From Actinophytocola algeriensis (lineage in GTDB: Bacteria; Actinomycetota; Actinomycetes; Mycobacteriales; Pseudonocardiaceae), in assembly GCF_014203735.1 (NCBI RefSeq), contig NZ_JACHJQ010000003.1, positions 915,326 through 979,325 of the forward strand: a stretch of DNA of 64,000 bases, written 5' to 3'. The stretch's first letter is position 1. Each line of letters begins with the position of its first letter. The position numbers were made by a program, and so were the translations under genes. Under the pieces are notes generated by a model. That model made no database searches. It had not been told where the DNA came from and saw only the letters and a program-made list of their open reading frames with translations. Positions 39,477 through 62,051 of this stretch are shown piece after piece.

Positions 39477-39549
39477 GGACGGACGGTAACCAGGCGCGCA
39501 CGAGTTCGCACTTGAGTTTCACGTAACGTCAATTCCTAACGTGCTCCCC

Positions 39550-39975
39550 ATGGCACCGAAGAAGAAACAGACGTTCCAGGTCACGCTGGAACTGCCCGCG
39601 GGCGACGCGCCGATGGTGGACCTCGGCAAGATGCTGGGGCAGACCGGCGTGAACCTGGTGGAGGTCAAGCGTTCCTACGACGCGAGCACGAGCGGGCAAC
39701 GCGGTGACGTGGTGCCGGTCGTGGTCACGGTCTTCGAGGACCGTTCGTTCGAGCTGCGCCTGAAGACCCCGCCGACGTCGTTTCTCATCAGGAAGGCGCT
39801 GGGCAGCAAGGGATCCGCGCGGCCGGGGCACGACAGGGCGGGTTCGCTGACCCATGAGCAGCTGCGCGCGATCGCGGAACGCAAGCTGCCCGATCTCAAC
39901 ACGACGGACGTGGCGGCGGCGATGCGCACGATCGCGGGTACGGCCCGGTCGATGGGGGTGTCCATAGTGGAATGA
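39550..39975 (+). CDS. Divergent ribosomal protein L11 (uL11) paralogue
   Basis: The 141-residue protein aligns end to end with uL11: a PKKK start, LPAG, LGQTGVN, VVPVVVTVFEDRSFELRLKTPP, then RAIAERKLPDLNT and MRTIAGTARSMGV. It is clearly not the housekeeping copy. The N-terminal helix normally reading KATPAPPVGPALGQHG is replaced by DAPMVDLGKMLGQTG, one residue shorter and without the conserved prolines. Those prolines contact the 23S GTPase centre drug site, and their mutation gives thiostrepton/thiopeptide resistance. No rplA or nusG is nearby, as would be normal for rplK. ATG 39550 is chosen by family alignment, GTG 39541 is possible, and no clear ribosome site is seen. Its stop overlaps the next start (ATGA). 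Confidence 0.88.
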   Translation: MAPKKKQTFQVTLELPAGDAPMVDLGKMLGQTGVNLVEVKRSYDASTSGQRGDVVPVVVTVFEDRSFELRLKTPPTSFLIRKALGSKGSARPGHDRAGSLTHEQLRAIAERKLPDLNTTDVAAAMRTIAGTARSMGVSIVE

Positions 39976-40355
39976 AGGTCGTGCCCCCGTTTCGTGCGCT
40001 GGACCCCGCGCTGGCGGTGGCGGAGCGGTTGCTGCCGTCGTCGCGGCTGTCCACCGTGGTCCTGTCGTTGCCGGACGAGCGAGCCGCCGCCGCGCGGTTG
40101 AACGAGGTGCTGGCCGGGGCCCGCCCGCGGTTGCGGTCCGTCGGTGGGGTGTGGTGCGTGGTCTACGTGGCTGTCGCCCGCCGCGACCCGGAGCTGGTCG
40201 TCGCGGCGGGCGGGCTCGCCGCGTTGGTGGCGGTGACGGGCTGGCGGCGGCTGAAGCGCTGCGACACGTGCGGCACCCCGTTCGTGGACCGCACGAACGG
40301 CTGCACCCGCCGCTGGTGCACGCCGCACCGCACCAGTCCGCCTCCCCGCGCTTGA
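39972..40355 (+). CDS. CGNR-like zinc-finger protein coupled to the L11 paralogue
   Basis: This 127-residue protein starts with an ATG overlapping the L11-like stop (ATGA), implying coupled translation. The C-terminal 30 residues (RLKRCDTCGTPFVDRT, then NGCTRRWCTPHR) match the CGNR zinc-finger pattern (RLRRC...F.D.s..RRWC...). The last cysteine/CGNR tetrad is missing, while an extra cysteine lies inside. A hydrophobic stretch (LVVAAGGLAALVAVTGW) precedes the finger. CGNR proteins are thought to be nucleic-acid-binding regulators. A role together with the L11 paralogue at the ribosome is only inference. Confidence 0.75.
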   Translation: MKVVPPFRALDPALAVAERLLPSSRLSTVVLSLPDERAAAARLNEVLAGARPRLRSVGGVWCVVYVAVARRDPELVVAAGGLAALVAVTGWRRLKRCDTCGTPFVDRTNGCTRRWCTPHRTSPPPRA

Positions 40356-61110: not shown

Positions 61111-62013
61111 TCAGCTCCTCAGCGCCGCCACCAGCCACTCCGCGTTCGGCACCTGCTCCGGCCACTGGGGCCAGCCGTTGATCGTCGCCATCAGTTGCCA
61201 GTAGCGCTCGGCGCGGCCGTCCGTGCTCAGCGCCATCCGCTCGGCCACCTCCTCCCGCGACGCACCGAACGCCGCGACGATCTCCGCCGCCAGCTCCTGA
61301 CCCGTCGCCGAGCCCGGTTCCTCGCCCGCCTCGCGTGCCACCGCGGCCCGTGCGGTCCAGCCCTTCCACTGTTCCTGTGTCTCCGGCGATGGCATGTCCA
61401 TCGACTCGCCCGCCTCGCGTGCTTCCGCGTGGCCCTCGCTCATCGCGCGGATCCGGGCGCGGAAGTCCTTGTCCTGCACCAGTTCCGCCAGCTCGATCCA
61501 CGCCTCCAGCTGCTCGGGGGTGGGGTCGTCCGGCAGCACCGGCTTCGCGGAGCGCATGCCCGCGTCGAAGTCGGGGTTGATGTCCAGCCCCGCGTTCACC
61601 TCGTTCCAGAAGTCGTCGATCAGCGCCGCCCGCTCCGCGTCGGTCATCGTCGCCAGGTTCTTCATCAGTCGCACCTCGTCCAGCTCGGCTTCGGTTCTCG
61701 CGATCGCGCGCAGCACGGCCCGCCGCAGCCGCAGCACCCGGATCTGCTCGTCGAGCAGCGCCACGTGCCTGCGGGCCAGATCGGCCACGGACGACTTGCC
61801 CGCCAGCGCCGCCGACGCGTCCGGCAGACCCAGCCCCAGCTCGCGCAGCGTGCGCAGCAGCTCGAGCCTGGCCAGCGACTCACCGTCGTACAGCCGGTAG
61901 CCGGCGTGCGTGCGGTCCGCGGGCGGCAGCAGCCCTTCGTCCGAGTAGAAGCGGATCGTGCGCGTGGTCAGGCCGGTACGCCTGGCCAGCTCGCCGATCG
62001 TCAAGAACCCCAT
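61111..62013 (-). CDS. MerR-family transcriptional regulator
   Basis: The 300-residue regulator has an N-terminal MerR winged helix (LTIGELARRTGLTTRTIRFY, then DEGLLPPADRTHAGYRLYD) and a coiled-coil dimer helix (residues 75-115). It has a long C-terminal effector region (115-300) rich in Glu, Ala and Trp, which I cannot place. ATG 62013 is chosen because its promoter predicts a transcript starting at about that base (leaderless). ATG 62022, with GGAAGG upstream, is the alternative, but that site lies inside the operator. It interrupts the folK-DUF3180 synteny on the opposite strand, suggesting insertion. It may control itself and the divergent DUF3180 gene. Confidence 0.87.
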   Translation of the reverse strand: MGFLTIGELARRTGLTTRTIRFYSDEGLLPPADRTHAGYRLYDGESLARLELLRTLRELGLGLPDASAALAGKSSVADLARRHVALLDEQIRVLRLRRAVLRAIARTEAELDEVRLMKNLATMTDAERAALIDDFWNEVNAGLDINPDFDAGMRSAKPVLPDDPTPEQLEAWIELAELVQDKDFRARIRAMSEGHAEAREAGESMDMPSPETQEQWKGWTARAAVAREAGEEPGSATGQELAAEIVAAFGASREEVAERMALSTDGRAERYWQLMATINGWPQWPEQVPNAEWLVAALRS

Positions 62014-62051
62014 GCGAGACATGCTGAACCTTCCAGTAACTGGAGAGTCAA
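62014..62051 (-). promoter_or_regulatory. MerR-type promoter with 19-bp spacer and dyad
   Basis: On the minus strand, -35 TTGACT (62051-62046) and -10-like CAGCAT (62026-62021) are separated by 19 bp, the over-long spacing that MerR regulators untwist. The spacer contains a perfect dyad TCCAGT-A-ACTGGA (62032-62044). The predicted start is about 62014, one base before ATG 62013. Confidence 0.75.

Follow-up and report, generated by a model that had tools for sequence, protein, structure and literature searches.

A second uL11 gene with an altered drug-contact loop and a MerR-type promoter in Actinophytocola algeriensis

In the 64,000-nucleotide stretch of the Actinophytocola algeriensis genome analysed here (contig NZ_JACHJQ010000003.1, positions 915,326 to 979,325 of the forward strand; hereafter the window), we identified a gene for a diverged paralogue of ribosomal protein uL11 that has lost three prolines of the drug-contact loop and stands directly behind a conserved promoter of the MerR type. 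This second L11 may be a spare ribosome part deployed under antibiotic attack. The explanation that we favour, and to which we give slightly less than an even chance, is that the gene encodes an inducible uL11 that would replace the housekeeping protein and provide tolerance to thiopeptide-type inhibitors. A conditional L11 replacement with thiopeptide tolerance had been among the roles proposed from an earlier, sequence-only reading of this DNA, and it has gained support, as a predicted role, from the lost drug-loop prolines, the MerR-type promoter and the close resemblance of the operator arms to those of a TipAS-MerR gene.

The paralogue and its drug-contact loop

The paralogue gene (39550-39975, + strand) encodes 141 amino acids and was assigned from its Pfam domains, its TIGR01632 score, its clade and its dN/dS values. 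The protein is full-length and matches both L11 Pfam domains above their cut-offs, PF03946 (N-terminal) with 3.5e-13 and 49.5 bits against 32.9, and PF00298 (RNA-binding) with 1.2e-23 and 83.7 bits against 21.4, so the uL11 scaffold described earlier is indeed kept. With TIGR01632, the NCBI equivalog model L11_bact, it scored 138.3 bits, just below the cut-off of 141.85, and the gene was therefore filed as a paralogue and not as rplK. The 9.73-Mb genome contains two L11 matches, the stronger of which is rplK on contig C9, adjoining nusG-like and rplA-like open reading frames (neighbour names assigned by eye). The window gene is therefore additional to a separate housekeeping rplK, which bears out the earlier claim of an extra copy, a claim that depended on finding another rplK in the genome.

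A survey of 60 related genomes, four of which had no L11 match at all, revealed a second L11 in 13, and every one of these extra copies is related to the window gene (identity 62-83 percent). A search of the 84,980 species in genome_contigs, based on the N-terminal region, retrieved 128 relatives of the paralogue; 80 of these, together with the window copy, make up the set of 81 used below. The 80 come from Amycolatopsis, Prauserella, Kutzneria, Kibdelosporangium, Actinophytocola and Pseudonocardia, from Dactylosporangium and Actinoplanes-type genera, Allonocardiopsis and Murinocardiopsis, and from Phytoactinopolyspora and one Rhodococcus. In a quick tree of 143 columns (81 paralogues, 30 rplK copies and one L11 from a thiopeptide cluster), a single branch (SH-aLRT 99) separated all 81 paralogues from rplK, with 58 of 109 inner forks open; the window copy was closest to copies from Actinophytocola (Pseudonocardiaceae).

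Mean identity between paralogues and rplK was 0.45 in the N-terminal domain (NTD) and 0.49 in the C-terminal domain (CTD), leaving out of the means the genome's own rplK, which has extra N-terminal residues in its reading. Because the divergence runs along the whole length, the changes go beyond the drug site, and many NTD positions that are invariant in rplK are altered besides the prolines. The CTD motifs TPP and GTARSMG are near-invariant among the paralogues.

It is in the drug-contact loop that the changes are most uniform. At positions that we take to be those of E. coli uL11 numbering, P22, P23 and P26 are replaced by V, D and K in the window paralogue, and one residue, N19, is deleted. 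Among 14 paralogues retrieved with a generic L11 profile, position 22 is V in eight, M in three and A in three, and never Pro; position 23 is D in 12 and E in two; position 26 is always Lys; and 12 of the 14 copies retain P20. The set of 81 had V (56), A (17), M (6) or T (2) at position 22 and Pro at position 20 in 50 copies. It was drawn with two peptide patterns, one of which includes D/E23 and K26, so that its counts of D (63) and E (18) at position 23 and of Lys (81/81) at position 26 are biased: 75 of the 81 carry D/E23 with K26 by construction because the pattern contained them. The other six, found without that pattern, also have Lys at position 26. Our weighing of the explanations is unaffected by this bias, since the replacements recur in the 14 copies found without bias. 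Pro occupies all four positions in each of the 30 rplK copies examined, a comparison set taken from the L11 loci of this genome and of the surveyed relatives and picked out by the motif PPVGPALG, which is present in all 30.

The thiazole rings of thiostrepton stack on the prolines of the uL11 NTD, and mutation of these prolines lowers thiostrepton binding and gives resistance (excerpt of PMC5960728). The reported loss of the drug-site prolines holds for P22, P23 and P26, together with the deletion of N19, but P20 is often kept. The proline-rich helix had been described as lost from the N-terminus; three of the prolines are replaced, but the N-terminal domain is present.

The MerR-type promoter and candidate regulators

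A conserved element of 31 bp, which the sequence-only reading had not mentioned, emerged when upstream regions were aligned: TTGA at -35 and TAnnnT at -10 are separated by a 19-bp spacer, in whose centre lies a dyad. In the window, alignment and scans place this promoter/operator at 39512..39542 (+ strand; TTGAGT-N19-TAACGT, dyad TTCACG-taa-CGTCAA), ending 7 nt ahead of the start codon of the paralogue. It was the only match to the element in the window, and 100 shuffles gave none. A strict scan (TTG, 19-bp spacer, TAnnnT and at least four of six arm pairs) found the promoter upstream of 58 of the 81 paralogues, and in none of 1620 dinucleotide shuffles or 30 rplK upstream regions. Among the 23 paralogues that failed the scan, three (L186, L194, L170) show the site by eye with weaker symmetry, leaving 20; three Pseudonocardia copies among the failures have the dyad with a different -10. 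MerR-family promoters have spacers of 19-20 bp, and MerR factors bind a palindrome in the spacer (excerpt of PMC9909328); the element has this arrangement, with its spacer of about 19 bp and the dyad centred between -35 and -10. The end of the promoter is 6-8 nt from the start codon in 41 of the 58 and 30-40 nt from it in 17, and the shorter distance suggests that the paralogue mRNA is leaderless.

Two further observations were made during the upstream comparisons. Five copies of Actinoplanes type (L206, L209, L211, L213, L215) lack the MerR-type site; what they have in common upstream is a different long conserved sequence, in which CACACTAAGGAGCT precedes the start codon. Separately, a conserved gene of about 295 codons at L101, L103, L105, L219 and L240, in genomes G020, G032 and G006 and two of Amycolatopsis type, stands behind a MerR-type operator whose sequence is similar; we take the gene product to be a DUF2268-type putative protease.

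A genome-wide search for the element (up to three mismatches) returned two matches in the 9.7-Mb genome and none in a reversed control. The second match is the promoter of a gene on contig C11 (48138-48890) that encodes a MerR domain with a TipAS domain (TipAS 2.4e-27), a protein related to the SkgA and TipA structures. The operator arms of this gene and of the paralogue are identical at 11 of 12 positions, compared with six, seven and eight of 12 for the three other MerR genes of the genome with recognisable promoters. This survey covered 29 of the genome's 30 MerR genes (28 stretches), the 30th being the TipAS gene found by the genome match; in relatives it covered 23 of 23 genes in G025 and nine of 22 in G014 (13 left out). 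Besides the TipAS promoters, it yielded six recognisable MerR-type promoters across the three genomes. In Streptoalloteichus tenebrarius (G006), the contig of L203 encodes a close homologue of TipA (5.5e-53 to TipA 2mbz) about 2.9 kb upstream of the paralogue, and the two operators read CTCACG-CGTGAG (TipA homologue) and CTCACG-CGGGAG (paralogue). Thiopeptides are sensed by TipA (excerpt of PMC9909328). If the inducible replacement is real, the paralogue could be a gene that sensors of the TipA class naturally act on.

As a general rule, we rejected a TipAS protein as the sole regulator. In G014, G020 and G035 the dyad of the TipAS promoter reads TTGACG-CGTCAA and differs from the paralogue operators there, which are CTCCAG-type (by eye), and two of the 14 paralogue-bearing genomes (G022 and G025) gave no TipAS match. 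A genome of the same genus (G003) has the TipAS gene and lacks the paralogue.

A second candidate regulator is encoded within the window, a 300-aa MerR-family protein (61114..62013, - strand; Pfam MerR_1 3.3e-19) with its own 19-bp-spacer promoter (62021..62051, - strand; dyad CTCCAG-tta-CTGGAA). Its TipAS Pfam score of 0.0021 is below the cut-off, its C-terminal part resembles TipAS only weakly (hhalign probability of 71 across 37 columns), and the structure-search rows cover mainly the HTH part. Relatives of this protein are encoded 17-25 kb from the paralogue in G001, G002, G020 and G025, and in G025 the best operator match is that of the 300-aa MerR gene (11/12), as it is by eye in G020. 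In this genus we rejected it as the sole regulator, as its operator (CTCCAG-CTGGAA) agrees with that of the window paralogue (TTCACG-CGTCAA) at six of 12 arm positions. We conclude that the paralogue is probably under MerR-type control by a regulator that may differ between genera, because the operator fits other MerR proteins in other genomes.

We infer that a MerR-family regulator, together with its inducer, would untwist the 19-bp-spacer promoter, which once switched on would yield a leaderless paralogue mRNA, along with that of an ABATE/CGNR partner where one is present. Since the RNA-binding motifs of the CTD are kept, the paralogue should occupy the H43/H44 stalk base. Poor thiopeptide binding is expected of an N-terminal loop that lacks P22, P23 and P26, and ribosomes carrying the paralogue would bind drugs of the thiostrepton/micrococcin type poorly and go on translating.

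A uL11 made in times of stress might instead retune the factor-binding site and so change how its ribosomes respond to EF-G, L7/L12 or RelA; the stringent response would then be dampened, or translation slowed, independently of any drug. The uL11 NTD region overlaps the factor site (excerpt of PMC5960728), the altered NTD positions extend well past the prolines, MerR-type control would suit many chemical or redox cues, and ABATE/CGNR proteins have been proposed to be stress-induced regulators (excerpt of PMC2954205). However, the drug-contact loop holds the most uniform changes and the operator is common with TipAS-type genes in two genera, and we consider such retuning unlikely.

The zinc-finger partner and the genomic setting

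The paralogue overlaps by four bases (ATGA) a gene for an ABATE/CGNR-related zinc-finger protein of 127 amino acids (39972-40355, + strand), assigned from Pfam and an alignment. The overlap with a CGNR-type zinc-finger gene had been noted before; the shared ATGA stands, but the protein is merely CGNR-like, with a zf-CGNR score of 22.1 bits, short of the 24 required, and WCTPHRT in place of the absent CGNR (or CQNR) motif. C97, C100, C116 and H119 are invariant in 30 aligned partner sequences, the fourth invariant ligand candidate being His. A partner was detected at 31 of the 81 paralogues, the window included (matches that include one split and one fragmentary), and at none of the other 50; it is present in eight of the 13 relatives with a second L11. 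The pair is therefore conserved in part and often absent, and with a fewest-change count of 15 for the partner, on a poorly resolved tree, the weight that the sequence-only reading placed on the pairing is reduced. In one Amycolatopsis (L150, 10254-10780) the zinc-finger match runs across two frames and is perhaps a decaying copy.

The overlap or close spacing with a putative nucleic-acid-binding gene, and the 45-49 percent identity to which the paralogue has diverged from rplK, would also be in keeping with a non-ribosomal, L11-derived regulator that works as a repressor, decoy or drug sponge and whose target is an mRNA resembling the GTPase centre or a partner, possibly the zinc-finger protein. 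We regard this as distinctly unlikely, given the 50 paralogues at which no partner was detected and the near-invariant TPP and GTARSMG motifs of the CTD.

The replacement that we favour would serve defence and not self-immunity, because no thiopeptide-type genes were found near the paralogue (open reading frames across about 20 kb; methyltransferase, GNAT and HIT neighbours scanned) or near the genome's own YcaO gene, where none of the nine proteins scanned has a dehydratase domain. The genes of the YcaO locus were called with a simple codon-composition script, and the Pfam scan was of this genome's locus. This single YcaO gene (L337; G000:C6:252000-271000; about 813 aa) keeps odd company, being adjoined by genes for an FcoT-like thioesterase, an AMP-ligase and a BTAD regulator. 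A self-immunity role, whether for a present thiopeptide pathway of the same cells or as a remnant of one, gains something from the L11 paralogues inside thiocillin-type clusters (excerpt of PMC10704990; pBac115) and from the YcaO gene present in 13 of the 14 paralogue-bearing genomes. We rejected it, with a slim chance left to it, since the neighbourhood is not a biosynthetic cluster, the own YcaO locus lacks a dehydratase among the nine proteins and the chromosomal place is common to different genera: a glyA-like gene follows the paralogue in 10 of 14 loci compared and a gamma-carbonic-anhydrase-like gene precedes it in six of 14 (gene names by eye). At L234 (G080), the usual place between the carbonic-anhydrase-like and glyA-like genes has an operator-like dyad and no called L11 open reading frame, possibly a recent loss of the paralogue.

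We give least credence to a drifting duplicate with no selected role, which would account for the patchy distribution (13 of 60 relatives) and the frequently missing partner, since none of the 3109 sequence pairs with dS 0.3-2, which are not independent of one another, reached a dN/dS of 1 (median 0.36, highest value 0.82), the paralogue is monophyletic and its promoter is conserved.

If the inducible replacement is real, it would let cells tolerate an entire class of antibiotics by swapping the target on induction, outside producer clusters, and could account for the intrinsic thiopeptide tolerance of many soil actinobacteria. The set of paralogues would also offer, as an experiment made by nature, a view of which residues in the uL11 loop EF-G and RelA function can spare. 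A broader proposal, which we offer more tentatively and think rather doubtful, is that an inducible, chromosomal ribosome-remodelling defence is widespread in soil actinobacteria and does not require thiopeptide production; it would combine MerR/TipAS-type sensing with the D/E23 and K26 uL11 swap, and the ABATE zinc finger would aid the exchange or tune the response.

Comparison with known systems

Plasmid pBac115 carries an L11 gene within a thiazolyl-peptide cluster of the thiocillin/thiostrepton family; we take this L11 to be of the TclQ type and the cluster to be that of micrococcin. In the one sequence compared, the cluster L11, presumed to be an immunity protein, keeps P20, P22 and P23 and has Thr at P26. 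The TclQ and TclT paralogues of B. cereus are likely protective, their ribosome interaction not being determined (excerpt of PMC10704990). As here, the TclQ/TclT proteins of thiocillin/micrococcin clusters are a second L11 beside rplK, with P26 changed (one sequence) and a presumed immunity by target replacement. The window paralogue is likewise an extra L11 with substitutions of drug-contact prolines. However, the TclQ-type protein compared still has P20, P22 and P23 and is encoded inside a thiazolyl-peptide cluster, whereas the window paralogue has lost P22, P23 and P26, belongs to its own actinobacterial clade, has a MerR-type promoter and has no thiopeptide biosynthetic cluster alongside. 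For this reason we do not class it as a TclQ-type member and suggest only that it may work like one.

Among the literature matches listed, judged by title and abstract opening, none describes the uL11 paralogue or its promoter. Hits to rplK serve as a resistance indicator across producers in an excerpt of PMC9290621, in which two Amycolatopsis strains are marked minus for this indicator, and L11 is merely named as the thiopeptide target in excerpts of PMC11406533 and PMC11762266.

The partner resembles Jann_2411 of the ABATE-CGNR family (3h0n) in having an ABATE-like part and a treble-clef-type zinc finger. It differs in its length (127 residues, compared with 188), in WCxxHR for the CGNR motif and in His as the last likely ligand.

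With the TipA regulon the paralogue shares a MerR-type promoter with a 19-bp spacer and, in two genera, near-identical operator arms. In contrast, an L11 paralogue is not described as a target in the excerpts on that regulon, and the regulator of the paralogue seems to differ between genera. The zinc-controlled alternative L31 and L36 proteins (PMC13343924) are likewise conditional ribosomal-protein paralogues beside a main copy; here, the protein is a different one, a MerR-type promoter takes the place of zinc control and the change falls on a drug site.
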